From the NCBI GenBank assembly GCA_903884505.1, contig CAISET010000005.1:1-64000 (forward strand): DNA of 64,000 bases, in the 5' to 3' direction. A program made the position numbers and the translations under genes. The stretch is from an uncultured Microcaldota archaeon (GTDB lineage Archaea; Micrarchaeota; Micrarchaeia; Burarchaeales; Fermentimicrarchaeaceae). Positions 34,809-49,482 of this stretch are shown one piece after another; the stretch's first letter is position 1, and each line of letters starts with the position of its first letter. The notes under the pieces were generated by a model, which did no database searches, was not told the origin of the DNA, and saw nothing but the letters and a program-made list of their open reading frames with translations.

Positions 34809-37118
34809 TCAGCGGAGCTCGGACATGCCGATTATCGGGCCGAGCGATTCCGCGTGGGTGAGCATGACCTGCCTCGAGCCCATCTCCATCTTCAGCGCGA
34901 CCGCGAGCCTCGTTGGCGCGGGGCCAAGCCTTTTGGCGAAGTCCTGGAGCTGCTCCTTGCTCTCGAAGACTATGAAATTCTTCCCCTTCTTCGCCAGGAG
35001 CAGGGCGCGCCTGACCGCCTCCTCGCCATCGTAGATGTGGATGAATATGTTCTCCCCGCGGTAGTTCACGAGTATGTCGCAGTCCTGCCTCTGCGCGACG
35101 TCCGTGAAGAGGATTGCATGGCTGATGAGGAAGTTCCTCAGCATCCTGAACATGGCGAGGTAGCGCGCGCTTTTGCCGCTCTGCTTCTCCCATGAGCCGA
35201 GGCCGTAGAGGCCGAGCGCATTCGTGACCTCGCCGCTCCCGGAGAGGCTCCGGAGCAGCTTCTCGAGGTTGTAGTCCGAGACCAGGACCGGCTTCCCCTG
35301 GTAGGTTACGCGCTTCCGCACCCCCGCCTTTATCTCCTGCGCGGTGAGGGGCATCCACTTCCAGCGGTATTCCTTGTTGATGTTCTCCATCAGGTTCGTG
35401 AGCGCGAAGCGGGAGAGCGGTATGCGCTCCTTCTGCTGCGGCGGGAAGTCCGGGACGTCGATGAAGTACTTGGGCGGCTCGGTGCGGCGGAGCGCCACGC
35501 CGATGATGAGCACGAGGAACGTGACCACTATGATGCCCTGGTTCATGGGCTTGTCGAAAAAGGTCTCCTGCTTGACGCGGGAGGCCTTGAGCGTGAATGA
35601 CCTGCCGGTTGCGCTAAGGCTGAACGAGTGGTCGCCGAAGCCCGGCTTGTCCGCTGGCTTGTAGGTAAGGATGCCCGCCCCGTCCGTCTTCAGCGTGACC
35701 TGCGGCAGGCTGTCCATGCTGAAGAGCACGTTCGTGTTGTCCACCGGCTTCCCGTCGGAAAGAAGGGCGAAGGTGAATATGCCGTTGTCCCAATCCGCGC
35801 CGACCAGCTGCGCGGCAACGAGCGGGATGTGGAGCAGGGACTGTGCGTATGCCTTGCCGGAGATGTCGTTTATGCGCAGCAGGTAGTCCCCGCCCGTGAG
35901 GTTGATGGTGTAGCGCTTCTCGGTCGAGTAGTCGGTGACGAAGTTGACGAGGCCGAGGTTCTGCTGCTGCTCTATCTTCCCGTCCTTGTAGGCGGTGAGG
36001 AACAGCTCGAATTCCCTCGGCTCGCTGAAGTTCTCGTGGAGTTCCAGCTTCACGGGTATTATGGAGCCGTTGACCGCGAAGTTCGCGTTGAAGAGCCTCC
36101 CGGTCACCGGGTTGGATATGTTGAGGTCATGGTGCTCATTCAAGCTCCGCGAGTCCAGCGTGGTGACGGCCGCGTATAGGCGCACGTAGCCTCCGTTCTC
36201 GGCGGATGGCGAGAGGAAGATGGAGTCGGTCGCGTTTATCACGCCGTAATAGTCGGCGGCGAGGGTGCGGTTGCCCGTTGCGACCGGCTCCTGCCAGCCG
36301 ACCTCGGAGATGAACCTCGCAACATCCTGCGCCGCGGCAGTCCCGTTGCCCCCTCCGCGCGAGTTCCAGCCCAAGTCGAGGAAATTCGGGAAGGCGACGA
36401 AGTAGCCCTTTGAGAGGGACAGCACGTTTATCGCCGAGTCGTAGATTGTCGAGTTGCCGCTTAGCCTGTAGGGGCCGCCCTCGAATGTGTAATTCCCGTC
36501 AGCAGGCTGCTGCTGGGAGGGAGCCTCCGAGAGGTTGTACTGGCCCAGCGCGCCGAGAGGGACCGACTCGACCGAGCCGGTGCGGGTCATCCAGAGGCTG
36601 AAGTCGGAGCCGATGTAGACTATCACGCACCCGCGCTCCATAAGCCTGTTGAGGTTGGCGCTCGAGTTCGAGTCGAAGAGCACGCTCGGCAGCCTGCCCG
36701 TCGGGACTATGATTATTGCCCCCTTCTCTATGCGCTCGAGCTGGTTGAACTTCACGGACACGAGCGTCGAGTCGGCGGGTATGATACCCTGAGCCTTCAG
36801 CCCCGCCTCGAGCGAGGACTTGAAATCGGGGAGCGTCGTGCAGCTCTCGCACGGGTAGTCGAGCAGGTAGATGTCGCTGGGAATCTCGCTCCTGTACATC
36901 TCCGCGGAGAAGTCCGCCCTCGAGATGTCCTTCCCCTGCATGCCGTAGATGATGTAGAGCGAGCGCTGCCCCTGCTCCCCGTTGTCCACGACCCCGGTCC
37001 CGCCCACCGAGTAGCTGTATTCGGGCGTGTAGTTGGCGGGAGGCGGCGCGACGACTCCGCCGGCGAGCAGCTGCACGTAGATGTAGAGGCCGACGAACGC
37101 AAGCAGCAGGACGAGCAC
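34809..37118 (-). CDS. Membrane protein with extracellular GATase/DUF4350-like region and cytoplasmic tail (769 aa)
   Basis: An N-terminal hydrophobic helix (LVLLLAFVGLYIYVQLLAGG) is followed by an extracellular alpha/beta region at about 40-190 that loosely resembles GATase-like DUF4350 domains. A sequon-containing beta-rich region comes next, then a second helix at about 524-542 and a cytoplasmic tail of some 225 residues. This topology suggests a receptor or anchor linking outside to inside. The listed start is GTG 37118, but a CTG at 37148 (giving NLKRAFLTIV before the helix) lies closer to a GGGTGAT site and may be the true start. It follows the ATPase operon without a gap. Confidence 0.85.
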   Translation of the reverse strand: MLVLLLAFVGLYIYVQLLAGGVVAPPPANYTPEYSYSVGGTGVVDNGEQGQRSLYIIYGMQGKDISRADFSAEMYRSEIPSDIYLLDYPCESCTTLPDFKSSLEAGLKAQGIIPADSTLVSVKFNQLERIEKGAIIIVPTGRLPSVLFDSNSSANLNRLMERGCVIVYIGSDFSLWMTRTGSVESVPLGALGQYNLSEAPSQQQPADGNYTFEGGPYRLSGNSTIYDSAINVLSLSKGYFVAFPNFLDLGWNSRGGGNGTAAAQDVARFISEVGWQEPVATGNRTLAADYYGVINATDSIFLSPSAENGGYVRLYAAVTTLDSRSLNEHHDLNISNPVTGRLFNANFAVNGSIIPVKLELHENFSEPREFELFLTAYKDGKIEQQQNLGLVNFVTDYSTEKRYTINLTGGDYLLRINDISGKAYAQSLLHIPLVAAQLVGADWDNGIFTFALLSDGKPVDNTNVLFSMDSLPQVTLKTDGAGILTYKPADKPGFGDHSFSLSATGRSFTLKASRVKQETFFDKPMNQGIIVVTFLVLIIGVALRRTEPPKYFIDVPDFPPQQKERIPLSRFALTNLMENINKEYRWKWMPLTAQEIKAGVRKRVTYQGKPVLVSDYNLEKLLRSLSGSGEVTNALGLYGLGSWEKQSGKSARYLAMFRMLRNFLISHAILFTDVAQRQDCDILVNYRGENIFIHIYDGEEAVRRALLLAKKGKNFIVFESKEQLQDFAKRLGPAPTRLAVALKMEMGSRQVMLTHAESLGPIIGMSELR

Positions 37119-37152
37119 GATGGTGAGGAATGCCCTTTTCAGGTTCAGGCAA

Positions 37153-37350
37153 TCACCCTTCCTCCTTCCGGCCCATCATCTTGTAGACCGCGAGCCGTAT
37201 CTGCCTGAGGTAGGGGTTCTCCTGCGCCTCCTGCAGGCGCTTCACTGGCCTAGCCTGCTTCACGTAGGAGAACCTGCGCGCTATGTTGAATACGTAGGAC
37301 TTCTTCACAACCTGCAGCTTCATCAGCTCGGGTTGTTCCTGGTCTGCCAA
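37153..37350 (-). CDS. Small basic protein (65 aa)
   Basis: No family recognised. The sequence is rich in Lys, Arg and aromatic residues (SYVFNIARRFSYVKQARPVK) and has no membrane segment. The start is probably the TTG at 37350, four bases after a GTGAT site that overlaps the upstream stop codon; a GTG at 37359 is the alternative. Its tight place between the coiled-coil winged-helix-like protein and the 769-residue membrane protein suggests it belongs to the secretion-related machine. Confidence 0.7.
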   Translation of the reverse strand: MADQEQPELMKLQVVKKSYVFNIARRFSYVKQARPVKRLQEAQENPYLRQIRLAVYKMMGRKEEG

Positions 37351-37358
37351 GATTATCA

Positions 37359-38135
37359 CTAACCCCTCAGCTCGAGATAGCCCTGCATGACCATCTTGTT
37401 GAGCACGTCCTCGACGCGCGACTCCACTACCCCGTATTGCTTCGCGAAGTCCGAGACGTTCATCTCGTTCCTGTGCACGTCAAGCCAGTCCTGTATCTTC
37501 ACCATGAGCGCCTCGTCCGTGTAGGCCTCAAGCTGGCCCAGGCGCAGGGTGAGCTCGTCGTTCCTCGCGCGCGCCTCTATGAGGTCCCTGCTCACCTTCG
37601 CGTTCAGCGAGGCCAGCTCGTCCGCGCGCCTCTTCAGCTCCTCGTGGTCCTTCAGCAGGGAATCGTAGCGCGCGAAAATCTCCTTGTAGTCGGAGCTTGC
37701 GAATTCGGTGATGTCCGCGAGCGCGGACTGGAGCGTCTGGAACAGGTATTTCTCGTCTATCTCGTAGGCGCCGGGGATGATGGTGAGGATGTTGAGGAAA
37801 TGGCGCAGGACGTCGATGCGGCGCTTGCGCGGGCTGACGCCGGGCACGAGCGTGTAGGCGACCTCGATGGCATCTGGCCTCATGTAGACCGTCGAGAAGA
37901 GGTAGGGGCTGCGGCGGATGTCGCGGCTCTCCACGTTCAGCACCGCGATGTAGTCCGCCTCGCGCGCAATCTCGAGGTTGCTCAGGGTGCAGAGCGCGTC
38001 CATTATCTCCGCGGTGCCCTTGAGCCTCTTCGCGAATATCTTGAATCCGTCCACCTTCGGCGCGGCGAGCTTCTCCGCCTCGGCCTGTGACGGCAGCGCC
38101 GGCTTTCCGGTTTGTGGCTTCGCTGGCTCTGGCAT
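37359..38135 (-). CDS. Coiled-coil protein with winged-helix-like C-terminus (258 aa)
   Basis: No named family. Residues 1-30 are Pro/Ala-rich, 31-145 look globular (FKIFAKRLKGTAEIMDALC, YLFSTVYMRPDAIEVAYTLV), 145-205 form a coiled coil, and the end (VSDFAKQYGVVESRVEDVL, NKMVMQGYLELRG) resembles a winged helix. There is no signal or membrane segment, so it should act in the cytoplasm. The ATG at 38135 has a GGTGAT site. It is encoded in the ATPase operon, five bases after the upstream two-helix protein, and is probably an adaptor or regulator of that machine. Confidence 0.82.
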   Translation of the reverse strand: MPEPAKPQTGKPALPSQAEAEKLAAPKVDGFKIFAKRLKGTAEIMDALCTLSNLEIAREADYIAVLNVESRDIRRSPYLFSTVYMRPDAIEVAYTLVPGVSPRKRRIDVLRHFLNILTIIPGAYEIDEKYLFQTLQSALADITEFASSDYKEIFARYDSLLKDHEELKRRADELASLNAKVSRDLIEARARNDELTLRLGQLEAYTDEALMVKIQDWLDVHRNEMNVSDFAKQYGVVESRVEDVLNKMVMQGYLELRG

Positions 38136-38140
38136 TCATA

Positions 38141-38518
38141 TCACCTTTTCCGAACCGGCTTCCCCGCATTTTTCTGGGCCGGTTCCTCCGCTTTCTCGTC
38201 GCGGATGCCCGGGGAGTAGGTCAGGAGCGGGATGGCCATTACGAGGATGATGCCGACCAGCATGTAGGCGAAACCCGCTATGCTCGGCGAAACCAAGATG
38301 AAGGACACGAAGAAGACGAAGGAGAGGAACGCGAACCACATCACGTATTTCTCGAAGCGCTTCCGTTTCTCCCGCCACTTCGGGATGTCCTCCTTGCACA
38401 CGACCAGCCTGTTGCCCGCGGCTATGCCGAGCCTGGTCTTTATTGCGCGCACGGTTTTGATGTACGGGTCGTCGAGCACCGGCGAGCCTTCCTTCTCCTG
38501 CCTGCAGACTATGCACAC
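38141..38518 (-). CDS. Two-helix membrane protein with N-terminal CxxC (125 aa or longer)
   Basis: No family recognised. An N-terminal CIVC, possibly zinc-binding with a later Cys (VVCKED), precedes a basic stretch and two hydrophobic helices (MWFAFLSFVFFVSFILV and AGFAYMLVGIILVMAIPLL), ending in a basic tail. The listed GTG at 38518 has no ribosome-binding site. A CTG at 38569 is in frame, adds 17 residues and lies eight bases after a strong GGAGGT, overlapping the end of the previous gene; it may be the real start. It probably anchors cytoplasmic parts of the ATPase machine at the membrane. Confidence 0.78.
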   Translation of the reverse strand: MCIVCRQEKEGSPVLDDPYIKTVRAIKTRLGIAAGNRLVVCKEDIPKWREKRKRFEKYVMWFAFLSFVFFVSFILVSPSIAGFAYMLVGIILVMAIPLLTYSPGIRDEKAEEPAQKNAGKPVRKR

Positions 38519-38561
38519 GCTTTTCTGCTTGTTAGCAGCGGCCTTTTCGCTTCCCGTTGTC

Positions 38562-38861
38562 TTAGTCAGAGAAAACTACCTCCTGCACCTTGCTCTCGTC
38601 CAGCCCGGCCTTCTTCAGGTCCGCGCGGGAGAAAATATTGATGAGCGTCGGGTCGTCGAGCCCAGTCTCCTTCAGGAACGCATATACCGTGTCGCGGCCT
38701 ATCCCGAACCTCTCTATCGCCAGCACGAAGGAGAGGGCGTCCATGTGCCTGCTCCTCTGGTCGAACAGCGCGATGGTCTCCTCGAGCTGGGCGTCCGTGA
38801 GCCCCATGTCCCTGAGCCTCTTCTTCAGGGCGGGCTTTTCGAACGGGAAGGATTGGGCCAT
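38562..38861 (-). CDS. Small paralogue of the ATPase C-terminal domain (99 aa)
   Basis: An all-helical soluble protein. It aligns over about 80 residues with the C-terminus of the ATPase encoded immediately upstream: here FEKPALKKRLRDMGLTDAQL, there FERGELRNRLVEFGMEDTRV; here AFLKETGLDDPTLINIFSR, there AFLKGIGVDDATIIDLFSR. A duplicated tail domain as a free protein suggests an adaptor that competes with or bridges the ATPase hexamer. The ATG at 38861 lies 11 bases after the ATPase stop. Confidence in the paralogy is high; the role is inferred. Confidence 0.85.
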   Translation of the reverse strand: MAQSFPFEKPALKKRLRDMGLTDAQLEETIALFDQRSRHMDALSFVLAIERFGIGRDTVYAFLKETGLDDPTLINIFSRADLKKAGLDESKVQEVVFSD

Positions 38862-38872
38862 TTCGCTCGCAC

Positions 38873-40414
38873 CTACGGCGCGCCGCCGCGCATGAAGTCG
38901 ACGCGGGAGAACAGGTCTATTATCGTCGCATCGTCCACTCCTATCCCCTTGAGGAACGCCATCGTGTTCGTGCGCGCGACGTTGTTTTCCTCCAGGAAGT
39001 TCACGAACATGAGCACGTCAAGCCGCTTCCCGCCCTTCTCGAAGTTGGATATCAGGTCGTTGACGCGCGTGTCCTCCATCCCGAATTCCACGAGCCTGTT
39101 GCGCAGCTCGCCGCGCTCGAACGCGTAGCTGTGCGGGGTGCCGGGGGTTGCGCGCGCCTCTTCCGAGAGCACGCTTTCCACGTCGAGGAAATATTCCTCG
39201 AGCGGCTCCTCGCCGTGAATCTTCTCCAGCAGGAAGGTCTCGGGGAACTCGGTGGTGGTCTGGAACGCCATGTTCACGGCGCACTGCCCGACCCCGAACT
39301 TCGCTATCTCGTCGCGCATGTAGTCGCTGAAGCCCAGCGAGCCCTGTATGTAGTCGAGGAACTTCTCGAACTTCACCCTGAGGATGAAGGTGGTGCCGAC
39401 GTTGGAGAAGATTGCCTCGTTTATGTCAGTGGGGTTCTGGGAGGCGACGATGAGCCCGAACTGGTACTTCCTTCCCTCCCTGACAATCATGATTGCGTCC
39501 GAGCGCTCGTCCGCGGCTATCTTCCACGCCTCGTCGAGGACGACCAGGACCTTCAGGCCCTTCGTGGCTGCCCAGCCCACGGCGCGCATGCGCTCCTTCA
39601 GGAACTGCAGGAAGAAAAGGCCCGCAAGGCCCCTCATCACCTCGTCCGGAAGGCCGCTCATGTCTATGTCCACGAGGCCGATGTCCGTAAGCTCCTCGAG
39701 CTTCACGGTCGAGGGCTGCGCGAAGAAGTCGTTGCCCGGGCGCGTGAACTGCTTCAGCCTGTAGACTGCGTTCTCCAGCTCCGCCGGGAACTCGTAGGTC
39801 CCGGCCTTCATCCTCTTCTCCAGGATTGCGACGACTTCTTTTAGCGTGGGAACCTGCAGGGGCTTGCCGGTCTTGCTCTTCGTGTCCGCGACCTCCACCA
39901 CGAAGCCCGCGTCTATGTAGGACTGCTCTATCGCCTGCTCGGTCAGGCGCTTCTGCTCGGGGTAGCCGCCTATGTCCGTCAGTATCTCGAGCGCGCGGAT
40001 AATCTGCTTAACCCTGTCTATGGGCCTCATGCCGCCGAGGTCGAGCAGGTTCACGTAGTCGCCCTTGCCGAGCGAAAGGATTTTGCCGCCGGTCTGCTGC
40101 ACCCAGCCCTTGTACTCGCCGGCCCAGTCGATTATGATGGCGTTGCTGCCCCATACGAAGGCCGCGCGGGACAGGAACGTCTTCACGAAATAGGACTTTC
40201 CCGCGCCGGTTATCCCCACGACGCAGATGTGCGGGTTGGTCAGGTGCATGAATGACCAGTTGAACGGCATGTGGAACATCTTGGTCTTGCCGATGTAGAT
40301 GGAGTTCCCGGGGTCGAGCGCCACGAACTCGGGGGGAGGCTCGGGCGGCCTTACGAATAGCGGGCGCTTCGAAAGCTCCTTGCTTGTCACGCTCTGCAGT
40401 TTCAGCCAGCCCAT
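38873..40414 (-). CDS. VirB4/HerA-like ATPase of a type IV secretion-related system (513 aa)
   Basis: P-loop ATPase of the VirB4/TraC/HerA class. Walker A is G67-ITGAGKS-74 with Lys73; Walker B is LKVLVVLDEAW with Asp294-Glu295. The text ASQNPTDINEAIFSNVGTTF after it is typical of VirB4. The N-terminal membrane and VirB4 N-terminal domains are absent; they appear instead to be encoded by the two genes upstream. A C-terminal helical domain of about 85 residues is duplicated in the 99-residue neighbour. VirB4 proteins power pilus assembly or substrate transport; CedB is the archaeal DNA-import analogue. ATG at 40414 with GGTGAT. Which substrate moves, and in which direction, cannot be told. Confidence 0.93.
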   Translation of the reverse strand: MGWLKLQSVTSKELSKRPLFVRPPEPPPEFVALDPGNSIYIGKTKMFHMPFNWSFMHLTNPHICVVGITGAGKSYFVKTFLSRAAFVWGSNAIIIDWAGEYKGWVQQTGGKILSLGKGDYVNLLDLGGMRPIDRVKQIIRALEILTDIGGYPEQKRLTEQAIEQSYIDAGFVVEVADTKSKTGKPLQVPTLKEVVAILEKRMKAGTYEFPAELENAVYRLKQFTRPGNDFFAQPSTVKLEELTDIGLVDIDMSGLPDEVMRGLAGLFFLQFLKERMRAVGWAATKGLKVLVVLDEAWKIAADERSDAIMIVREGRKYQFGLIVASQNPTDINEAIFSNVGTTFILRVKFEKFLDYIQGSLGFSDYMRDEIAKFGVGQCAVNMAFQTTTEFPETFLLEKIHGEEPLEEYFLDVESVLSEEARATPGTPHSYAFERGELRNRLVEFGMEDTRVNDLISNFEKGGKRLDVLMFVNFLEENNVARTNTMAFLKGIGVDDATIIDLFSRVDFMRGGAP

Positions 40415-40424
40415 TTCATCACCG

Positions 40425-41246
40425 TCAGATTTGCGCGGCGAAGTCCTTCGGCTCGGGTGGGATTGCGCGCTCCCACTTGAAGCACTTCTTCATGTCCTCG
40501 CCCTTGAGCGGGACTATCTCTATGTTGAGCGCGTTCGCGACCGTCGAGCGCACCTCGTCGACCTGCTTCTTCGCCTGCGCGATGGCAGCGTCCTCGCTCA
40601 CGCCCACGCCGGTCGTCGCGATGTACATCAGCGTGCCCATCGGCTTCTCGCCGGACGTGAGCCTGCTGAGCATGTCGTTGAGCCTGTCTATCTCGCGCTC
40701 CCACTTGTCAATCGTCAGCGCGTCGGGGTTGGGCTTCTCCTTCTCCTTCCCGAGCTTTATCTGCGCCCCAGCCCTGTCGGTCTCTATCTTCTCCCTGTAC
40801 CTGACGATGTCGTCTAGGTAGGCGATGAGGCTGAACTTCATCGGGAAGCGGAGCGCGGCGAGGCTGCGCTCCCAGAGGTCCATGTAGCTCGAGCCCGCCT
40901 CCTCCTCGACGCCCGAGACCGCGGCCTCGTAGAACTTCGCGCCCATGAACATGCTCGCCTGGTAGAGGCCGCCCACGTTCCTGATGACCACGTCCTGCGT
41001 TGGCGGCACCCGGTAGCCGTCCGAGAGGTCCTCGGAGACGCGGAGCAGCTTCGTGATTACCGGCATTATGAAGTATGCGGCCATGAACACGCCGTATGTG
41101 ACTGCGACGCCGGCTGCACCCACGACCATCAGGGCTATGGTGAGGATGCCGCCGATGTCCCCGGCGCGCGTGAATGTGATGGCCAGCCCTACCAGTCCCA
41201 TTCCTATCGCGGCGAACGCCATGTTCTTCTCGCTCACATCAACCAT
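40425..41246 (-). CDS. PrgI/VirB3-like plus VirB4 N-terminal-domain-like membrane protein B (273 aa)
   Basis: Two hydrophobic helices near the N-terminus (MAFAAIGMGLVGLAITF and LTIALMVVGAAGVAVTY), then a soluble region of about 200 residues. The soluble part ends VANALNIEIVPLKGEDMKKC, which resembles the end of the VirB4/TraC N-terminal domain, just before the ATPase in a normal VirB4. I infer a split VirB4. It is a tandem paralogue of the gene upstream (RSTVANALNIEIVPLKGEDM against RSTVGTALNVDVVPMSGEDM). ATG at 41246, with only a weak AGGCTGAT site. It lies 10 bases before the ATPase gene. Confidence 0.85.
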   Translation of the reverse strand: MVDVSEKNMAFAAIGMGLVGLAITFTRAGDIGGILTIALMVVGAAGVAVTYGVFMAAYFIMPVITKLLRVSEDLSDGYRVPPTQDVVIRNVGGLYQASMFMGAKFYEAAVSGVEEEAGSSYMDLWERSLAALRFPMKFSLIAYLDDIVRYREKIETDRAGAQIKLGKEKEKPNPDALTIDKWEREIDRLNDMLSRLTSGEKPMGTLMYIATTGVGVSEDAAIAQAKKQVDEVRSTVANALNIEIVPLKGEDMKKCFKWERAIPPEPKDFAAQI

Positions 41247-41255
41247 TCTATCAGC

Positions 41256-42050
41256 CTAAAATTCCTTCATCCCTGCGGGGAGCGTGTATGCCCAGTCGAA
41301 GCAGCGCTTCATGTCCTCGCCGCTCATCGGGACCACGTCCACGTTGAGTGCTGTGCCTACGGTCGAGCGTATCTCGTTCGCGCGCTGGCGCGCGGCTGCG
41401 ATTGCGGAGTCTTTCGTGGCCCCGGTCGCGGAAGTCTGTATGAAAGTGGCGATTGCCGTCGGCTTCTCGCCGTATGATATCTTCGAGAGCATGTTGTCCC
41501 ACATCGCTATCTCGCGCTCCGTCTTGTCCACCACGGCCTGGCTCGGGCTCTGCTTCTCGCTCTCCTGCCCCAGGAGCATCTGCGCCTTCGCCTTCCTCGC
41601 CTCTATGCTCTCGCGGTATTTCGAGAGGTCCTTTATGTAGACGAGGATGCTGAACTTGACCACGCTCTTCATTCCGGAGACGGCGCGCTCCCACAGGTTC
41701 ATGAAGCCCACCTTCTCGTCGGCGCTCATGCCGGTGGTGGTCTTGAATATCTTCACGCCGAGGAAGACCGTCGCGGTGTAGGTGCCGCCCTCCTGCTTGA
41801 CGAGCACGTCCTCGCTTGGCGGAATGTCGACGAAGGCATCCTGCGTCCTTATCACGCGGAGCCCCCGCGTGAAATAGGGTATCATCCAGTAGCCGTACTT
41901 GTAGGTCACTATGGAGGCGGGGCAGAGGATGAGCGCGGCGAGCAGTATTATCGCGGTGAGCGGGCCGAGCGTGCCGCCGGTCACGAACGCGAGCAGCATC
42001 AGCACGAGCGCGGCGCCCAGCATCGCCAATGCCGTCGTCTTCTCGTCCAT
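41256..42050 (-). CDS. PrgI/VirB3-like plus VirB4 N-terminal-domain-like membrane protein A (264 aa)
   Basis: First gene of the ATPase operon. Two N-terminal helices (ALAMLGAALVLMLLAF, LTAIILLAALILCPASIV) are followed by a soluble domain paralogous to that of the next gene, sharing NLWERA(V), KFSILVYIKDL, MLSKISYGEKP and the ending GEDMKRCFDWAYTLP. The tandem pair may form a hetero-oligomeric membrane base for the separate ATPase. ATG at 42050; the TATA box at 42071-42082 places the transcript start at the ATG, so it is leaderless. Homology to VirB4 N-termini is inferred from motifs and context. Confidence 0.85.
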   Translation of the reverse strand: MDEKTTALAMLGAALVLMLLAFVTGGTLGPLTAIILLAALILCPASIVTYKYGYWMIPYFTRGLRVIRTQDAFVDIPPSEDVLVKQEGGTYTATVFLGVKIFKTTTGMSADEKVGFMNLWERAVSGMKSVVKFSILVYIKDLSKYRESIEARKAKAQMLLGQESEKQSPSQAVVDKTEREIAMWDNMLSKISYGEKPTAIATFIQTSATGATKDSAIAAARQRANEIRSTVGTALNVDVVPMSGEDMKRCFDWAYTLPAGMKEF

Positions 42051-42070
42051 GGCAGGATATTACGGCGCGT

Positions 42071-42082
42071 CCTTTATTAATG
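42071..42082 (-). promoter_or_regulatory. TATA box for the ATPase operon (leaderless)
   Basis: The minus strand reads CATTAATAAAGG, centred 26 bases from the ATG at 42050. Confidence 0.6.
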
Positions 42083-42093
42083 TTTTCAGGGCG

Positions 42094-42127: not shown

Positions 42128-42157
42128 ATTATTATAATTCGTGTGCGTCCCAGGGCT

Positions 42158-43351
42158 TCAGATAAGCTTTACCAGCCCCTGCCCGACCTCGCTTATGTCC
42201 GAGCCGAGGAGCGGCGCGGCTATGCGGATGAAAGAAATCGTCACGGCGAATATTATCATCGGGTAGAACACGGCCTTCAGTATGATGGGAGGCAGGAACG
42301 AATGGAACTGGTTCACCTTCGCCACGACCGCGGGATTGGCCTGCTCTTCGGCAGTCTTGGCGGCGTCCTCGAAGTCGTGCTCGCAGGCGCTGAACTGCTC
42401 GAAGTTGATTCCGACCGTGGACGCCCTCGCGGTGCTCAGCGCGGCCTCCATGGCCGCCTGCTCCTCGGTCATCCTCGCCACGAAGGCGAAAATCGTGGGA
42501 TAGACGAAGAAGAAGCCTATGGCTAACGCTATGATGAGGCCGCCGGCGCCGCGCGTAATGGGGAATATGCGCAGGAACACGCCCAGCGGAAGGAGCACCG
42601 AGAACATCTTCTGCTGGATGAATGATAGGATGGACTCCTGGAAGTAGACTATCATCAGGACCTGTATGATGAAGTGCATGGCGAGGTGCGGCGGGTCGAC
42701 CAGTATCGGCTTCAGCCAGACCAGCAGGTATATCTCGCCCGGGCCCATGTTCTCGTATTTGTAGAGCGTGGTGAGCGCCTCAATCCAGTAGGTCCAGTTG
42801 TAGAAGTTGCGGTACCAGTCGATTAGGGGGTTCGCTACGCCCTCGAGATACCTGTGGGCCACTGCGAACGGGTTCACGTTCGCGCCGAGTATCACGGCCA
42901 TGCCCTCGTCCAGCATGATGTAAGTCAGCACGATCAGGGCGCCTACCAGGACCGCGCTCGCGAAAGCCTGGTACATCTCGCTCTTCGCCCACATCCTGAG
43001 CTCGCGCACGTCGAAGCCTATCCCGAGCATGTAGGCGAAAGCCGCGACGAGGAACGCGCAGAGCACGCCCAGCATCGCAATCGGGCCCCAGAAGCTCCAC
43101 TGCGACTCTATCTTCGCCTTGCAGGGGTCGTACCAGTTCGCTCCCGGGACGGTGTAGCACGCGGAGCCGGTGGTCGAGGCGGAATCGGCTATGCACGTCT
43201 GCCCGCACTCGCATTCCGTGGAGAAGTCTGGCGAGGTCGGGTCGCTGTGGGCGCATGCCTTGCCCTCTATCGTATCCGCGGCGGACGCAAGCGTGGGGAG
43301 AAGTGCGGCAACGAGCACGATGCAGAGCAATGCTCTCCAGGCGTTCATCAT
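42158..43351 (-). CDS. VirB6/TrbL-like polytopic membrane protein 1 (397 aa)
   Basis: Signal peptide (ALLCIVLVAALLPTLASA), then a short Cys-rich ectodomain (CECGQTC) and about six membrane helices. Family hallmarks: FAYMLGIGF followed by WAKSEMYQAF; LLPLGVFLRIFPITRGAGG; and the end GSDISEVGQGLVKLI. VirB6/CedA-type proteins form the inner-membrane channel part of type IV secretion or DNA-import machines; assignment rests on topology and the pilin/VirB4 context. The ATG at 43351 overlaps the previous stop (ATGA). Last of six tandem paralogues. Confidence 0.82.
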   Translation of the reverse strand: MMNAWRALLCIVLVAALLPTLASAADTIEGKACAHSDPTSPDFSTECECGQTCIADSASTTGSACYTVPGANWYDPCKAKIESQWSFWGPIAMLGVLCAFLVAAFAYMLGIGFDVRELRMWAKSEMYQAFASAVLVGALIVLTYIMLDEGMAVILGANVNPFAVAHRYLEGVANPLIDWYRNFYNWTYWIEALTTLYKYENMGPGEIYLLVWLKPILVDPPHLAMHFIIQVLMIVYFQESILSFIQQKMFSVLLPLGVFLRIFPITRGAGGLIIALAIGFFFVYPTIFAFVARMTEEQAAMEAALSTARASTVGINFEQFSACEHDFEDAAKTAEEQANPAVVAKVNQFHSFLPPIILKAVFYPMIIFAVTISFIRIAAPLLGSDISEVGQGLVKLI

Positions 43352-44415
43352 ATCAGCCTCGTGAGGTTGCTAACGTCGACCTCCTCGCCGATGGCCGCTG
43401 AAAGGCCCTTGATGAACGATATGAGCACTATGAATATCACTAAAGGTATGAAGATTATGCCGACCGCGAGCGTCGCTATGAACCCGAATGCGGCGTTTAC
43501 GCCGTTGCCAATCCATGCGACGGGGTTAATCATGTTGTTGATGCTCGCGAGCGCATCCTGGATGCCGGAGAACGCGTTGCTCGAGCTCTGCGTTGCGCCT
43601 ACCAGGTCCTGGTAATCGTTGTGCAGGTTGTTGAGCAGCAGCCCGTAGAGCAGCACTATGGCGAGCGGATAGACCAGGAAGAAGCCCACGGCTATCGCAA
43701 TCAGGGAGCCGCCGAACCCCCTTGTGGCTCCGAACGAGCGCAGCAGCAGGCCCGCAACCATCAGGTAGCCGAAGAGCTGCTCCGATATCCTGACGAGCAG
43801 CACCTGCGCCATCGCGAGCAGCAGCCCCACCCCGATTGCGGAAATGCCCATGCTGAGCGACTGCGAGACCTGAGTGAGCCCGTGGCCCAGCGAGACCTGC
43901 ATCCCTATGCCGCCGGGCGCGGTGTACCACGTGAAGGTCGATGCGAAAGCTATGAAGCCGTTGAGGACGGCGACTGTCGTGAAGGCTTGTTCGATGGTGT
44001 TCCTGAAGTCCTGGACGTAGAATTCCGCGACCTTGAACGTGCCGCAGTGGTTGGCAACCGTCAGGTTCTGGATGTTGAAGAACGCGGGCTGGGTGCAGGC
44101 CAGCGTAGGGTCAGCGCCGGCCACTGCCTCGGGGCAGGGCGCGCACTTGACGTCGTCTCCGAGCATGTGCGCATCGAGGGTGCAGGCCCACTGGACGAGC
44201 CCTATGAAGAAGAGCGCGAAGATGAGCGTAACGATTCCCTCGTAGACCTGGTTGATGGCCCAGAGCCTCACGCCGCGGTGGTTCGCCACTCCCGCGAGTA
44301 TGTAGGCGAGGCCGGCGACGAGGAAGACGATGAACGTCGCCATTATCACGACGGGCTGCCATCCTGTGACGAAGCCCTGGAACGAGGAGAAATCCGAGCA
44401 TACTGGGAATCCCAT
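43348..44415 (-). CDS. VirB6/TrbL-like polytopic membrane protein 2 (355 aa)
   Basis: Same architecture as its neighbours but with no cleavable signal. The first helix ends in LAYILAGV, then WAINQVYEGI, an extracellular loop with paired cysteines (CAPCPEAV, LACTQ), several helices, and LLLRSFGATRGFGGSLIAIA. The end SFIKGLSAAIGEEVDVSNLT is the cluster's C-terminal signature. It diverges most at the WAxxExYQ motif. GTGAT precedes the ATG at 44415. The last codons overlap the next gene by four bases, implying coupled translation. Confidence 0.82.
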   Translation of the reverse strand: MGFPVCSDFSSFQGFVTGWQPVVIMATFIVFLVAGLAYILAGVANHRGVRLWAINQVYEGIVTLIFALFFIGLVQWACTLDAHMLGDDVKCAPCPEAVAGADPTLACTQPAFFNIQNLTVANHCGTFKVAEFYVQDFRNTIEQAFTTVAVLNGFIAFASTFTWYTAPGGIGMQVSLGHGLTQVSQSLSMGISAIGVGLLLAMAQVLLVRISEQLFGYLMVAGLLLRSFGATRGFGGSLIAIAVGFFLVYPLAIVLLYGLLLNNLHNDYQDLVGATQSSSNAFSGIQDALASINNMINPVAWIGNGVNAAFGFIATLAVGIIFIPLVIFIVLISFIKGLSAAIGEEVDVSNLTRLI

Positions 44416-44419
44416 AGCA

Positions 44420-45391
44420 TCACAACAGTTTCGTCAGGCTGCTTATATCAACGTCCCCTCCCATGACCTTTGCGAACTCCCGCGTGAATGAAAGCGTGAT
44501 GGTCAGGTTGAAGAGTGGGAGGAATAAGCCGACTACGACCACGTCGTATATTGGCCTGTAGAGGGTTGAGATTATCCCGGCTATTATGCCGCCGACAAAC
44601 GGAACGTCCCCTCCGGGCAGGCTCGTGGCGCCGCCCATGAACTCCGTGAAGTTCTTCGTGTCGTTCGCGAACATGAGCGAGTCCAGGTAGAACATCATGG
44701 GGTAGAGGACATAGAAGCCCACGACAACCGCGACGATTGCGCCGCCCGCGGAGCGCGTGAACGGGAAGGAGCGCAGGCCTATGCCTATCGGGAAGAGCGC
44801 CATGAGCTTGTAGCGCAGGAAATCGAGGATTAGCGAGTTGATTGTGAGCAGTATCGCACCCCCTGCGGTGCCCATCATCACGAGCCCGATGAAGTCGCTG
44901 ACCGTCGCGAAGCCAGGCATGAGGCTGAAGGAGAAGCCCTGCTGGTAGGGCGAGACGTACTGGTGCCAGCTTACCATCACCCCGACGAGGATGTTGATGC
45001 CGAGCAGGGTCCCGTAGTTGGCGAGCAGCCAGAACCTCTCGCTGTCCATGAAGCATTTCGCGTAGTCGAACGCGGCGGCGTAGCCTCCGGGCGTGCTGTA
45101 GTCGCAGAGCGCGGGGTAGGTCGCGGCATCGCATTTGCAGCAGGAAGTGTTGGGGCAGACGGAAGACCCGGTTATGCCATTCATCAGCCCGTTTATGGAT
45201 GCGATGAGAACGACCATGCCGCCCACGATTATCGCGTTGGCTATGGCCTGGTAGAACTCGTTCCTCGCCCATCCCTTAACCCTCGGCAGCATGAAGCCTA
45301 TGCCTATCATGTAGGCGAATGCGACCAGCAGGAAGGATAGCAGGACCATTAGCGCGGACACGCTTTGCCAGGTTACCCAGATTCCAGCCAT
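44420..45391 (-). CDS. VirB6/TrbL-like polytopic membrane protein 3 (323 aa)
   Basis: Starts almost directly in the first helix (LMVLLSFLLVAFAYMIGIGF) without a signal peptide. WARNEFYQAI follows, then an outside loop with a cluster of cysteines (CPNTSCCKCDAATY), further helices and LFPIGIGLRSFPFTRSAGG. The end VMGGDVDISSLTKLL is the shared C-terminal signature. ATG at 45391, 10 bases after the upstream stop codon. The Cys-rich loops differ in length and sequence among the six paralogues, while the cytoplasmic end is conserved. Confidence 0.82.
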   Translation of the reverse strand: MAGIWVTWQSVSALMVLLSFLLVAFAYMIGIGFMLPRVKGWARNEFYQAIANAIIVGGMVVLIASINGLMNGITGSSVCPNTSCCKCDAATYPALCDYSTPGGYAAAFDYAKCFMDSERFWLLANYGTLLGINILVGVMVSWHQYVSPYQQGFSFSLMPGFATVSDFIGLVMMGTAGGAILLTINSLILDFLRYKLMALFPIGIGLRSFPFTRSAGGAIVAVVVGFYVLYPMMFYLDSLMFANDTKNFTEFMGGATSLPGGDVPFVGGIIAGIISTLYRPIYDVVVVGLFLPLFNLTITLSFTREFAKVMGGDVDISSLTKLL

Positions 45392-45401
45392 AACTTCCAG
45401 C

Positions 45402-46712
45402 TCATATCAGGTGCGTAAGCCCTGCTATCTCTACGTCGCCTCCGAGGAGCGGCGACAGCCCTTTTATGAACGCGATGGTCACCAGTATGGAAATCAGCGG
45501 TATCACGAGCGCGGGCACCATCAGCTCGCCGAGCTTCTGGCACAGCGGGAAGAGGAAGTCTGCGGGGTGCGGGTTCCCGGTCGTGCCATAGCCCACGAGG
45601 CCTCCGATGCTCAGGTCGGTCGGCGGCTCTACGCCTATGTCGAATGCGACGGCCTTGCCCCAGAGGACCGTCTCCACGAAGGTCGCGCTGCACCAGCGGA
45701 CTGGGCAGTGTATCTTTTCGTCGTATGACGCGACGGGCCACTTGCCGTTGCACAGGCAGTCTACCGAGCCCGTGATGCCGTATTGGTCGTACCACGGGTC
45801 GAAGCTATAGGAGTCCTCGAGGATGATGTACATGAACGGGTAGATTGTGTAGATGCCGATGGCGATTGCGATGAGCAGGCCGCCGAGCTTCCTGGTGAAG
45901 AAGAGCGTGCGGAGTATGAGGCCCATGGTGAGGAAGATGGGGAAGAACGCGTCCCGCGTGAGCGCGAGGAAGGTGGCCTGCGCCATGAAGCTCGTTATCC
46001 AGGTGAAGACAATCGGGAACATGAGGCCGAGGGCCTCGGTCAGCATCGAGACGCCTGCGTAGAGCTGGAAGCCGATGCCGAAGGCGCCGGACGCGCAGGT
46101 CCCCGGTATCCCCATGCATCCCGGCCACGGGTAAGTGGGCTCCCCCACGCCGGGGGAGACGTCGAAGTACTTGCCGGTCGCGGCGAGCGCGGCGGCGCGG
46201 ATGTTTATCCAGAGGAGCTGGTCCGCCTGCTCGATGCTCTTCTGCTCGAGGATTGAGACTATGCACCATGCCTTCTGGATGTGGAACTCGCATGGCAGTC
46301 CAGCGGCGAGGCGCGCGTCGCATGTATCGTGGTATTGGGAGTCGCAGGTCCCCGTGGTGGAAAACAGGCATGCGGATTGCGATGTGAAGTTGGCGAGGAA
46401 ATAGACGAAGCCGACTATGAACGCGAGCATGAACGCGCTCGCGAGCGCCTGGTAGAGCTCGTTCTTGGCCCACGCGGTTATCTGCGGATGGCGGAAAGCT
46501 ATCCCGAGCATGTAGGCCAGGGAGACGATTAGCAGGGAGATTAGGACCGCCGCGGCCGCGACCGCCTGCCAGCCGTAGTATGTCCAGAGGGACTCGAAGC
46601 TAGCGCCGCCACTCTGCGGGAGCGTATTGCACGTGTCCGCCTTGGCATCCGAGAGCGGGGCTAGAAGCAGGAGCGCGAACGCGGCCAGTGCAAGCTTCGC
46701 TGCCAACTTCAT
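45402..46712 (-). CDS. VirB6/TrbL-like polytopic membrane protein 4 (436 aa)
   Basis: The longest of the six. Signal peptide (ALAAFALLLLAPLSDAKA), then the first helix, LAYMLGIAF and WAKNELYQAL. Two long Cys-containing outside regions follow (CLFSTTGTCDSQYHDTC; a second near CLCNGKWPV), with LILRTLFFTRKLGGLLIAIA between helices and the signature end PLLGGDVEIAGLTHLI. GTGAT precedes the ATG at 46712. The enlarged outer loops could give this paralogue a special place in the channel; that is inference. Confidence 0.83.
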   Translation of the reverse strand: MKLAAKLALAAFALLLLAPLSDAKADTCNTLPQSGGASFESLWTYYGWQAVAAAAVLISLLIVSLAYMLGIAFRHPQITAWAKNELYQALASAFMLAFIVGFVYFLANFTSQSACLFSTTGTCDSQYHDTCDARLAAGLPCEFHIQKAWCIVSILEQKSIEQADQLLWINIRAAALAATGKYFDVSPGVGEPTYPWPGCMGIPGTCASGAFGIGFQLYAGVSMLTEALGLMFPIVFTWITSFMAQATFLALTRDAFFPIFLTMGLILRTLFFTRKLGGLLIAIAIGIYTIYPFMYIILEDSYSFDPWYDQYGITGSVDCLCNGKWPVASYDEKIHCPVRWCSATFVETVLWGKAVAFDIGVEPPTDLSIGGLVGYGTTGNPHPADFLFPLCQKLGELMVPALVIPLISILVTIAFIKGLSPLLGGDVEIAGLTHLI

Positions 46713-46716
46713 GCTA

Positions 46717-47625
46717 TCACTCGAACGGAGACGGGAACTGCTGGCTGAGTATCTTTGTGAGGCTGCGCGCGGCAGCTATGGTTATCACTATGCTGAGCAT
46801 CGGAAGGAAGACTCCCGGCGGGATGAGGTTCGCGACGTCCTGTATCATGCCCGGGACGTTGACGGAGTTGAGGATGTTGAAGTTCGCGTCGTTCCCCCAG
46901 AGCGTGGCCTGGTCCGGGCTGTTCTTGAAGTCTATCTTGTTTCCCGTGACCTGCTCCATTATGTCCTTGTTCATAACGTAGGTGAGCGGGAACACTATGT
47001 AAAACGCGATTGCCAGAGCGATGAAAGTGGCGCCGGCGGTGCGCAGGAACGGGAAGAGGCGGAAGAATATCCCGAGCGGCAGCATCACCTTGAACGCGAA
47101 CGCCTGCACGAGCCACAGGATTATGACCTGCATCAGCATGCTCGAGAACATCACGGACACCAGCCCGAACATCAGGTCCAGCACTCCGGCTATCGCGTTC
47201 ATTCCGGAGAACGGGAAGAAGCCCGTCTTCAGGTTGCCCAACGGCACGTACCACGCGGCCGTTATCTGGCAGAAAAGCGAGCCGAAGTATAGGTTCGTGG
47301 CTACCGAGACGCTCCGCTGCCAGATGAGGTCGTTGAGGTAGGAGTCCGCCACGCGGAACGGGTCCCCGCCTGCGAGCGAGAACGAAAGGCTGCACGCGCC
47401 CCAGGTGAACCAGACCACGAGGAGGATTATCATGGAAGAGATGACTATCTGGTAGAACTCCTCCTTCGCCCAGATGAGCCAGTCCTGCCTCTTGAAGAAC
47501 ACGGACATCATGTAGGTGAGGGAGAGGAACAGCATCACCACGAGCATCGCGAGGAATGAGAGCGAAATCCAGCCTCCGGTGACCCATTCCTCCGAGATGT
47601 TGCACGTGTATGGGATGATTGCCAT
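46717..47625 (-). CDS. VirB6/TrbL-like polytopic membrane protein 5 (302 aa)
   Basis: The shortest of the six, without a cleavable signal. It has WAKEEFYQIV after the first helix and MLPLGIFFRLFPFLRTAGAT in the second conserved block. The end is different: it stops at LTKILSQQFPSPFE and lacks the GGDVxIxxLT signature seen in its neighbours. Several helices and one outer loop (CSLSFSLAGGDPFRVADSYL) are visible. GAGGT lies ahead of the ATG at 47625, 10 bases after the preceding gene. Confidence 0.8.
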   Translation of the reverse strand: MAIIPYTCNISEEWVTGGWISLSFLAMLVVMLFLSLTYMMSVFFKRQDWLIWAKEEFYQIVISSMIILLVVWFTWGACSLSFSLAGGDPFRVADSYLNDLIWQRSVSVATNLYFGSLFCQITAAWYVPLGNLKTGFFPFSGMNAIAGVLDLMFGLVSVMFSSMLMQVIILWLVQAFAFKVMLPLGIFFRLFPFLRTAGATFIALAIAFYIVFPLTYVMNKDIMEQVTGNKIDFKNSPDQATLWGNDANFNILNSVNVPGMIQDVANLIPPGVFLPMLSIVITIAAARSLTKILSQQFPSPFE

Positions 47626-47634
47626 TCAAAGACC

Positions 47635-48663
47635 TCATATCCCGAGCTTGCCCATGCCGAATATCTGCGGGTCCCCGCCTATCGCCTCGGCTATGGACCT
47701 GAACGCCGTTATGGTTACTATCAGGTCGAGTATGAAAAGGAACAGCCCCATGATTATCCAGAGGAACTCCCTGTCGAGGGCGTTCATGACGACGTCGACC
47801 GTGCCGGACGGCAGGTCCCAGCCGCTCGACGGGGGCGCCGTGTTCCCGGTGACTATCTCGGTTCCCTGCCCGGCGTAGAGCTGGAATATGTAGACGTTTA
47901 TCGCGAGCGAGAGAGGGAACACGAAGTAGAGCGCGAGCGCCATCGCGATTACCGTCCCGCCTATCTTCCTTGTGAGCGGGAACGCCCTGAAGAGCACGCC
48001 GAGGGGCAGGAACACCTTGAGCATGTTGTTCTTCGCGAAGTGGAGCAGGACGTCCTGCGCCATGTTCGCGAAAATCGCGAAGTAGACCATGTAGAGCGGG
48101 GCTGAAAGGCCCTGAAGGATGGCGCCGAACCCGGCGGCGAGCGAAAGGGTGGTGCCTGTCCGGATGTAGACCCAGGTCGTCGGGAACTGCGTGGGGATGA
48201 GCGGGATGAAGAGGAAGAAGGTGAAGGAGAACGCCGAGGCGAAGCCGAACCCCTCCATGGTCAGGAGGAGAGACATCCACGTGCTAAGGAGCGCGGTCCG
48301 CATGAGGTTAAGGTAGTTGAATGCAGCGGAGAAGTGGTCCCCGCCGGCGAGCCCGTAGGAGATGTCCGTGAGGAACTGCGCGAAGAAGAATATGACGGCC
48401 ACCATCAGCAGTGTGAGCATTGCCTCCCAGAATTCCACCTTCGCCCACTGCTCGACCTGGTGGTAGCGGAAACCCATGCCTATCATGTAGGCGAGCGCGA
48501 CCAGCAGGAATGAGACGAGCAGCGCGGCCCCGGCCACCGGCAGCCAGTCCCCGAGGACCGGCGAAACTGTGGGGACCGTTGCGGAGGCAAAAGGCGCGAA
48601 TGAGAGCAAAAGCAACGCGAACGCTAGGGGTTTTGCCATCCTTCCCATGGCGCGGCTAAGCAT
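47635..48663 (-). CDS. VirB6/TrbL-like polytopic membrane protein 6 (342 aa)
   Basis: First of the six in transcription order. Signal peptide (PLAFALLLLSFAPFASA), first helix with LAYMIGMGF, then WAKVEFWEAM, and later FLPLGVLFRAFPLTRKIGG. The end AIGGDPQIFGMGKLGI is a drifted form of the cluster signature. There are about six helices and an outer loop (YGLAGGDHFSAAFNYL) similar to one in protein 5, so 5 and 6 may be the closest pair. The ATG at 48663 matches a leaderless transcript from the TATA-like box at 48685-48698; ATGs at 48648 and 48639 are alternatives. Confidence 0.82.
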   Translation of the reverse strand: MLSRAMGRMAKPLAFALLLLSFAPFASATVPTVSPVLGDWLPVAGAALLVSFLLVALAYMIGMGFRYHQVEQWAKVEFWEAMLTLLMVAVIFFFAQFLTDISYGLAGGDHFSAAFNYLNLMRTALLSTWMSLLLTMEGFGFASAFSFTFFLFIPLIPTQFPTTWVYIRTGTTLSLAAGFGAILQGLSAPLYMVYFAIFANMAQDVLLHFAKNNMLKVFLPLGVLFRAFPLTRKIGGTVIAMALALYFVFPLSLAINVYIFQLYAGQGTEIVTGNTAPPSSGWDLPSGTVDVVMNALDREFLWIIMGLFLFILDLIVTITAFRSIAEAIGGDPQIFGMGKLGI

Positions 48664-48684
48664 CGGTGGAATTTGGCCGTTCGT

Positions 48685-48698
48685 AGTTTTTAATAATA
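48685..48698 (-). promoter_or_regulatory. TATA-like box for the six VirB6-like genes
   Basis: The minus strand contains TTATTAAAAA centred about 28 bases upstream of the ATG at 48663, consistent with a separate leaderless transcript for the VirB6-like series. Confidence 0.45.
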
Positions 48699-48800
48699 TG
48701 CCAAGAAATCCGCTGGGTTTCGAGCAGCCTTCGGTCGCAAATCGCGTTAGGCGTGGGAGGATGCCGCTAATGACGGTTGCGGCGCCAGGGCTCGGGATAT

Positions 48801-48822
48801 GGGAAAAATAAGAAAGAGAAAA
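48801..48822 (-). terminator. T-rich terminator after the pilin pair
   Basis: Directly after the stop codon of the second pilin gene the minus strand runs TTTTCTCTTTCTTATTTTT. Such a T-tract is a typical archaeal terminator and would separate the abundant pilin message from the VirB6-like genes. Confidence 0.6.
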
Positions 48823-48827
48823 GGGGC

Positions 48828-49142
48828 TTAGCTGCTGAATCCCAGCAGGAAGTCCACGAGCCAGGGCGCGATGATGACGATGATGATGCCGATTATTCCG
48901 CCGACAATCATCGCCATAGACCAGTTCTGCGCCTTCTGCCTCGTCTGCACGTCAAATACCTGCCCTATCGCATAGACTATGCCCGCGAAGACGAACAGCC
49001 CCAGCGAAATGACCGGGACTATGCTCCGCAGCATGTTCACGAGCGATATGAGCTGCTCGTTTATCGTGCTCGCAACGCTTGAAGTGGCGAATGCGAGCGC
49101 CGCGAACGCGAGCAGCGTTAGGGGCAGTAGGGTTTTCCTCAT
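48828..49142 (-). CDS. VirB2/TrbC-like pilin subunit 2 (104 aa)
   Basis: Signal peptide (LLPLTLLAFAALAFATSSVA), then two helices joined by a short polar loop: VPVISLGLFVFAGIVYAIGQ and MAMIVGGIIGIIIVIIAPWL with VFDVQTRQKAQNWS between. This is the VirB2/TrbC topology; CedA1-type archaeal pilins share it. It is a clear paralogue of the gene upstream (KAQNWSMAMIVGGIIG against KAQGWAMSLLVGAIIG). The ATG at 49142 follows an AGGTG site. Probably secreted across the membrane and polymerised into a pilus or forming a membrane pore. Confidence 0.83.
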   Translation of the reverse strand: MRKTLLPLTLLAFAALAFATSSVASTINEQLISLVNMLRSIVPVISLGLFVFAGIVYAIGQVFDVQTRQKAQNWSMAMIVGGIIGIIIVIIAPWLVDFLLGFSS

Positions 49143-49152
49143 TTAACGCACC

Positions 49153-49482
49153 TTATTTGCAGCCCGACACCATGCCCCCGCCGAAAATGCTCAGGAACAC
49201 GGGCGCGAGCACTGCGAGCAAAAGGCCGATTATCGCTCCGACGAGGAGGGACATCGCCCAGCCCTGGGCCTTCGCCTTCATCTCTGCGCCGAAAGCCTGC
49301 CCTGCGGCGTACACCAGGCCTGCCATGAGCAGCATGATGAGCGCAATGGTGGGGATGACGGTTTCAATCAGGCTCTTTATCTGGCACAGCGAGCCGACAA
49401 GCTGGCTTGCAATGCTCGAAGACGCGGCAGCGAAGCTGCCAAACACAACTAACGCCAAAAAGACTGCCAACAGGTATCTCAT
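49153..49482 (-). CDS. VirB2/TrbC-like pilin subunit 1 (109 aa)
   Basis: Signal peptide (YLLAVFLALVVFGSFAAASS), then helices VIPTIALIMLLMAGLVYAAG and a second containing LLVGAIIGLLLAVLAPVFL, with a polar loop FGAEMKAKAQGW. Two cysteines (SLCQIK and the penultimate CK) are unique to this copy and could form a disulphide. It is first in its transcript, with a TATA box at 49543-49556 and a strong GGAGG site before the ATG at 49482, in keeping with high expression of a structural subunit. Family assignment rests on size, topology and neighbours. Confidence 0.83.
   Translation of the reverse strand: MRYLLAVFLALVVFGSFAAASSSIASQLVGSLCQIKSLIETVIPTIALIMLLMAGLVYAAGQAFGAEMKAKAQGWAMSLLVGAIIGLLLAVLAPVFLSIFGGGMVSGCK

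Follow-up and report, generated by a model that had tools for sequence, protein, structure and literature searches.

What is a gene set resembling a type IV secretion system (T4SS) doing in an archaeal chromosome without conjugation genes? The question is raised by contig CAISET010000005.1 of an uncultured Microcaldota archaeon (Micrarchaeota; assembly GCA_903884505.1), of which we analyzed a 64-kb stretch (the window) out of 68.6 kb, in a genome of 1.5 Mb in 37 contigs. Micrarchaeota are tiny, and many are thought to be attached to other cells. Bacteria pass DNA and proteins from cell to cell through T4SSs, in which the channel gene is normally single. In the open reading frame (ORF) map of the window, all sixteen genes of the machine were on the minus strand (34809-49482), as a preliminary description of the locus had proposed. 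The locus probably encodes a domesticated, vertically inherited, T4SS-derived Micrarchaeota machine for cell-cell contact, with a heteromeric channel of six VirB6-like subunits.

The transcription order was two pilins, six channels, N2, N1 (both VirB4 N-domain-like), the ATPase, a copy of the ATPase C-terminal domain, and the 125-aa, 258-aa, 68-aa, and 769-aa proteins (aa, amino acids). Intergenic gaps inside the run were -4 to +11 nt, apart from four of 34, 43, 107, and 164 nt. The channel genes were:

47635..48663 (-): channel position 1, VirB6-like, 342 aa; paralogue family and position-1 orthologous group
46717..47625 (-): channel position 2, 302 aa, with a short C-terminus also seen in relatives; paralogy and position orthology
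45402..46712 (-): channel position 3, 436 aa, with an enlarged extracytoplasmic loop; paralogy and position orthology
44420..45391 (-): channel position 4, 323 aa; predicted structure (predicted local distance difference test, pLDDT, 85) and position orthology
43348..44415 (-): channel position 5, 355 aa; paralogy and position orthology
42158..43351 (-): channel position 6, 397 aa; paralogy and position orthology

The six polytopic proteins, each with 5-7 predicted transmembrane (TM) segments (all TM counts are from a simple hydropathy scan), were mutually homologous (pairwise phmmer E 3e-9 to 5e-28), with only 19-29% identity to one another in the window. Despite this divergence, the motif L(P)xGxxLRxFxxTRxxGG kept its two arginines almost throughout (in 150 and 152 proteins out of 155), which argues that all six positions are under selection. 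Exactly six channel genes were present in all 44 complete arrays counted (approximately 14 families). Of these arrays, 27 were read gene by gene and 17 were taken from hit positions in nine genomes, including one split over a contig end and one with a frame break in a gene; two loci of one genome (L035 and L082) were entered once. One array outside this count (L021) comprised nine ORF pieces, read as six genes with frame breaks; its contig is labelled Marsarchaeota yet holds a typical Micrarchaeota array and probably belongs to a mislabelled bin. In a tree of the 155 channel proteins, array position agreed with that of the nearest neighbor from another locus every time (144 of 144; chance, 1 in 6), and positions 2, 5, and 6 each formed one single clade (25 members each). 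On this tree, each array position is a separate ancient orthologous group.

In families f1, f5, and f6 (form A), a single array was linked with a pair of N genes and the ATPase gene; in families such as f4, f7, f9, and f10, two arrays of six genes lay apart from each other, and the N and ATPase genes were each single. The order pilin, six channels, N, N, ATPase, C-terminal copy, two-TM protein, coiled-coil protein, 769-aa protein was kept in three families, with separate arrays elsewhere. The synteny search suggested in the preliminary description recovered the gene order in dozens of Micrarchaeota genomes, which excludes chance as the source of the gene set. The extracytoplasmic insert of position 3 expanded to hundreds of residues (>500 aa in some relatives) in second arrays. 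Five second arrays (L069, L071, L073, L075, and L077) encoded channels as long as 1126 aa, enlarged by extracytoplasmic inserts or by N-terminal domains and reminiscent of the extended VirB6 proteins of Rickettsiales.

The ATPase was found in 130 of 146 Micrarchaeota genomes at E <= 1e-90 and in 140 of 146 at 1e-3, and the channel family in 130 of 142; conjugation-type VirB4 occurred in just 14 of 142. The machine was missing from families f14, f16, f17, and most of f19, and genome contamination and fragmentation bear on single absences. The scan of relatives covered 45 loci from close relatives and says nothing on absence from other DPANN phyla; the search across the phylum recovered this same locus family. 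By this distribution, the machine is ancient and core to the phylum, in line with the resident envelope machine without conjugation genes put forward earlier. The phylum-wide core status and the exactly six channel genes in fixed order are new; a literature search, with preprints and most subscription papers outside its reach, yielded no description of a fixed six-channel set with a split VirB4 in archaea. Several of the families without the machine keep purC, and their genomes are rather large (1.2-1.4 Mb). Auxotrophy for purines or pyrimidines was rejected as the selective pressure behind the machine, which was present in genomes with and without purC.

Four further genes encode the ATPase and its partners:

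38873..40414 (-): VirB4-like P-loop ATPase, 513 aa; Walker A GITGAGKS, Walker B VVLDEAW; without an N-terminal domain of its own
41256..42050 (-): N2, 264 aa, VirB4 N-domain-like, membrane-anchored, with a PrgI/VirB3-like TM hairpin; N1 paralogue (E 7.8e-64)
40425..41246 (-): N1, 273 aa, same family as N2; AlphaFold model (pLDDT 86) with PDB fold matches
38562..38861 (-): 99-aa stand-alone copy of the C-terminal helical domain of the ATPase; matches ATPase residues 428-511 (phmmer E 3e-17)

The ATPase matched DUF87 (3e-13), AAA_10 (6e-11), and TraG (3e-8) above the curated Pfam cut-offs, and in a PDB sequence comparison the VirB4 structure 4ag5 aligned across residues 61-326 (E 1e-13). Its DEAW Walker B motif was common to the genome's own conjugation-type VirB4; the aligned HerA-like sequences have EEAH. 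By these sequence features, the ATPase is a VirB4-class member of the T4SS superfamily, and the machine shares ancestry with T4SSs and would work like them. In a FastTree phylogeny that included no Patescibacteria, it formed its own clade (support 1.0), separate from conjugation-type VirB4s. The best NCBIfam models were CedD (5.7e-18), CedB (4.7e-16), VirB4-like CD1110 (1.6e-13), and HerA (2.9e-13), none near its cut-off; the Ced equivalog scores were 64.9 bits (cut-off 600) and 58.5 bits (cut-off 700).

Structure models were made for two proteins, N1 and channel position 4. The top five PDB matches of the N1 model were all R388 TrwK/VirB4 (8rtb, 8rtd, and 7o41; probability 0.99-1.00; TM-score to query 0.35-0.38), and the N1/N2 profile was collinear with the N-domains of Micrarchaeal conjugation VirB4s (E 2.9e-4, 41%; single-sequence 0.0017). 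The PDB sequence-profile matches of N1/N2 were rejected as coiled-coil artefacts only; the fold search succeeded instead. As modelled, N1 and its paralogue N2 have the VirB4 N-domain and the VirB3/PrgI hairpin, which agrees with the two PrgI/VirB4-N-like proteins proposed initially. Because N1 has the VirB4 N-domain fold and the ATPase has no such domain, we conclude that VirB4 is split here, with its membrane-bound N part duplicated. VirB4 itself was split after the N-domain in several Micrarchaeal conjugation loci, a natural precedent.

The pilin genes open the cluster:

49153..49482 (-): VirB2-like pilin P2, 109 aa; Pfam TrbC 9.6e-4 and T4SS_pilin 1.4e-3, both under curated cut-offs
48828..49142 (-): VirB2-like pilin P1, 104 aa; Pfam T4SS_pilin 2.8e-5 and TrbC 2.5e-4, sub-threshold; family alignment

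P1 and P2 were homologous to each other (E 2e-21). P2 has a signal-like N-terminus followed by two TM helices with a short basic loop between them, and a profile built on 13 relatives matched the R388 pilin TrwL (E 0.015). These concordant, though sub-threshold, matches point to VirB2-like pilins, as the preliminary description had it.

The pilin profile also aligned to the channel N-terminus (hhalign E 8.5e-6, probability 83%), and the pilin likewise resembles the channel N-terminus in the VirB2-VirB6 and CedA1-CedA pairs (Beltran et al., PMC9905601). The channel profile aligned with Micrarchaeal conjugation VirB6 over 27 columns at one motif, LP.G..LR.F..TR..GG (E 5.6e-6), and the profile of this VirB6 in turn matched bacterial VirB6 weakly (E 2.4e-4).

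Several observations weigh against a contact machine with a VirB6-like channel. The relation of the channel family to VirB6/CedA is supported only indirectly, through weak profile links and synteny, so that of the six VirB6-like channels first described, the six homologous polytopic proteins stand and their VirB6 identity is indirect. The hhalign E-values are pairwise, with no correction for database size. Searches of Pfam, NCBIfam, and PDB sequences gave no relative for the channel family, and a direct comparison of the channel profile with bacterial R388-type VirB6 was negative. The Foldseek check envisaged earlier linked N1 to VirB4 at E 0.02-0.04, i.e., not <0.001, and the model of channel position 4 reached R388 VirB6 only at ranks 3, 9, and 11 (E 0.3-0.6, TM-score 0.25-0.31, non-significant). 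No VirB8 or VirB5 counterpart was identified in the machine. In the two-array families the channel genes sit apart from the ATPase gene, so that joint assembly there is suggested by conservation only. Finally, the window genome retains purine and pyrimidine synthesis genes.

The remaining genes of the cluster, with two neighbors, were:

38141..38518 (-): small two-TM protein with an N-terminal Cys pair, 125 aa; adjoins the ATPase throughout the phylum
37359..38135 (-): coiled-coil protein with a winged-helix-like C-terminal end, 258 aa; kept phylum-wide
37153..37359 (-): 68-aa cytoplasmic segment; read from sequence as corresponding to the N-terminus of the 769-aa protein
34809..37118 (-): two-TM protein, 769 aa, with an extracytoplasmic region of ~500 residues and a cytoplasmic domain of ~225 residues; phylum-wide
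25702..34710 (-): giant surface protein, 3002 aa, with a signal peptide, a C-terminal TM anchor, 115 Cys, and 66 NxS/T in the open frame
~51744-52472 (-): six-TM protein; in relatives, it follows the pilin and precedes the first channel gene

The 68-aa segment and the 769-aa protein, in separate frames in the window, form one protein of ~850 aa in other families (L062-L064 and L006-L016; e.g., L063 15962-18532). No Pfam or PDB relative was found for the 769-aa protein, which on its topology is a candidate VirB8 counterpart. The 3002-aa protein, a candidate adhesin, was present only in near relatives. The six-TM protein is probably part of the machine, given its position in relatives; one PMT-type glycosyltransferase and a plus-strand ORF lie between it and the pilin end of the cluster.

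Core chromosomal genes surround the cluster, and its placement beside ribosomal and tRNA-synthetase genes in the preliminary description was borne out. Elongation factor EF-2 was located at 3-1853, uS7-, uS12-, NusA-, and L30e-like ORFs at 1968-3762 (direct reading), and isoleucyl-tRNA synthetase on the other flank at 60690-63785. A radical-SAM methylthiotransferase is also among the neighbors, and an Rfc-small-like ORF was read beyond the window end. The GC content of the cluster (0.605) matched that of the window (0.601), thus giving no sign of recent acquisition. Three PMT/ArnT-type glycosyltransferases (50243-55359, minus strand) lie between the machine and the tRNA-synthetase side, and they may glycosylate the pilins or surface proteins. 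Below the surface protein, on the same strand (3924-25439, minus), are four very large proteins of 594, 1023, 1619, and 3877 aa, three of them with TPR or JAB (MPN protease-like) matches; these three appear to have N- and C-terminal coiled-coil modules in common.

The window genome has three T4SS-like loci (the main machine, a compact locus on contig C30, and a conjugation-type locus on C33) and five DUF87 proteins, three of which are T4SS ATPases. The compact locus (L058, G000:C30:1-20000, 8740-13296) encodes a pilin, one channel protein, one N protein, an ATPase paralogue (52% identical), a C-terminal copy, and a two-TM protein; its neighbors are ORFs for giant surface proteins and a 769-aa protein homologue. 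The conjugation-type T4SS (L059, G000:C33:28000-46000, 8428-13927) comprises a PrgI-VirB4 fusion of 890 aa, a VirB6-like 9-TM protein, a 517-aa protein, and a pilin. It has relatives in 14 of 142 Micrarchaeota; several of these loci adjoin a DNA methyltransferase-like gene and have their VirB4 divided behind the N-domain.

How might the machine work? We infer ring assembly, pilus formation, ATP-driven transport, and a contact role. The VirB2-like pilins would be exported by Sec and polymerize outward. Six non-identical VirB6-like proteins would form a single heteromeric channel and pilus base, beneath which N1/N2, through the VirB3/PrgI-like hairpin and VirB4 N-domain, would anchor a ring of the VirB4-type ATPase. 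The ATPase would pull out pilins and power the passage of a macromolecule through the pore. A link between cytoplasm and surface would come from the 769-aa protein, and partner specificity from lineage-specific surface proteins. A contact role is most likely, given the analogous Patescibacteria T4SS and the giant surface protein that adjoins the cluster in the window family. Six invariant, non-interchangeable genes are most simply explained by a ring with six seats, each filled by a subunit of its own, although a pentamer with one accessory subunit may be the stoichiometry. More tentatively, we propose that the six proteins form an obligate asymmetric hetero-hexamer or hetero-oligomer, each with its own seat since the early Micrarchaeota radiation, in a DPANN-side organelle for macromolecule exchange with partners.

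The main alternative for the substrate, which we regard as somewhat unlikely, is Ced/Ted-like import of DNA from neighbors for repair, recombination, or nucleotide supply. CedD and CedB were the nearest curated ATPase models, and the set of pilin, channel, and ATPase parallels CedA1/CedA/CedB (PMC9905601). For Ced, recent work describes a pair of channel paralogues, CedA and CedE, and a VirB4 N-domain divided over two proteins, CedB and CedD (PMC11868833), and the paired conserved arginines on all channel subunits would suit a polyanion. However, the ATPase scored far under the Ced equivalog cut-offs, no HerA/NurA or repair gene was linked to the locus, and the presence of the machine did not track purine auxotrophy (purC). 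No ComEC was found in the 97 Micrarchaeota searched, bar one sub-cut-off match, so any DNA uptake would need another channel; but ComEC was absent from 4 of 4 archaeal controls as well, and its absence is thus uninformative by itself. Export of protein effectors against or with a host, as in Dot/Icm, rvh, and Ptl, is less probable still. Relaxase-free, protein-delivering T4SSs exist, Ptl being without a type IV coupling protein (T4CP; PMC12857230); the obligate intracellular Rickettsiales are the other known case of multiple VirB6 genes (PMC2653234); and the giant, non-secreted-looking TPR/JAB proteins downstream on the same strand, examined within the window family, are possible cargo. However, neither a T4CP family match nor a recognized export signal was found.

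The fixed array also bears on whether the six proteins might instead form six independent homomeric channels with one common ATPase, an improbable arrangement in our judgment. The R388 VirB6 is a homopentamer, with VirB4 a hexamer of dimers (PMC9259494), and the compact loci L058 and L080 carry channel, N, and ATPase genes once each, so that one channel gene can suffice. Separately working channels should nevertheless show losses or tandem gains, and five or seven genes were never observed in the 44 arrays, whose order is fixed. That the locus is an integrative conjugative element or its remnant is very improbable, although the same genome holds a separate conjugation-type T4SS on C33; this explanation was rejected on distribution and genomic context. 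Core chromosomal genes lie on both flanks, and the machine is near-universal and ancient in the phylum rather than sporadic as expected of a mobile element. No relaxase or coupling protein was present in the 64-kb window, as previously described, and no match to the two most general families, PF02534 (coupling protein) and PF03432 (relaxase; other MOB families were not searched), was found genome-wide. Searches of 2.9 million viral contigs and of phage records gave no relatives, and plasmid matches were all <60% identity, with none spanning 80% of the query. The machine is, by score, not a Ced equivalog, and it is not a conjugative element.

A domesticated contact machine with a six-subunit channel would have wider implications. 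Microcaldus variisymbioticus ARM-1 belongs to the Micrarchaeota group. Cryo-tomography of ARM-1 revealed nanotubes, whose origin the authors assigned to the host, together with a 21-nm barrel that sits in the DPANN envelope; no genes are known for these structures (PMC11329633). For a contact structure on the DPANN side, the ancient, phylum-wide cluster derived from a T4SS supplies named candidate genes. A strict six-gene channel would also be a rare VirB6 stage made of different subunits, which bears on T4SS pore assembly and gating.

Compared with known systems, the machine resembles R388 VirB/Trw in its VirB4 ATPase and VirB4 N-domain fold and, more tentatively, in its putative VirB2-like pilin and its polytopic, putatively VirB6-like protein with a pilin-like N-terminus. 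It differs in that VirB4 is in two genes with the N part duplicated, that six channel genes replace one, and that no VirB8-11, T4CP, or relaxase was found in it. Crenarchaeal Ced/Ted is likewise archaeal, chromosomal, and relaxase-free, with a pilin, a channel, and a VirB4/HerA-class ATPase; CedD/CedB gave the best curated ATPase models, with scores far from equivalog cut-offs, and the pilin-like channel N-terminus is shared with CedA/CedA1. Ced/Ted, however, has one or two channel proteins (CedA, CedE) rather than six and different accessory genes. The conjugation-type T4SS of Micrarchaeota shares the order VirB2-VirB6-PrgI/VirB4, and its VirB4 is split in several genomes; unlike the machine, it is sporadic, has one VirB6 and an ATPase in another clade, and in some loci lies beside DNA methyltransferase-like genes.

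Several divergent VirB6 paralogues are also found in the Rickettsiales rvh T4SS, with five in Rickettsia (PMC2653234) and very large extensions in some Rickettsiales VirB6 proteins (PMC7648143). That system is bacterial, has VirB8-11 and VirD4, four or five VirB6 copies, and an unsplit VirB4. Patescibacteria need their resident T4SS to grow as epibionts (PMC12102498, PMC12857230). Like the Micrarchaeota machine, this T4SS is chromosomal, without relaxase, and in ultrasmall, host-associated cells, with a paralogue array (PMC12102498); its T4SS_pilin family is the one that the Micrarchaeota pilins matched below threshold. Patescibacteria multiply the pilins (2-11 genes, variable), whereas the Micrarchaeota machine multiplies the channel, always to six. 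Together, the two would mean that conjugation machinery became a resident organelle in ultrasmall bacteria and in ultrasmall archaea alike.

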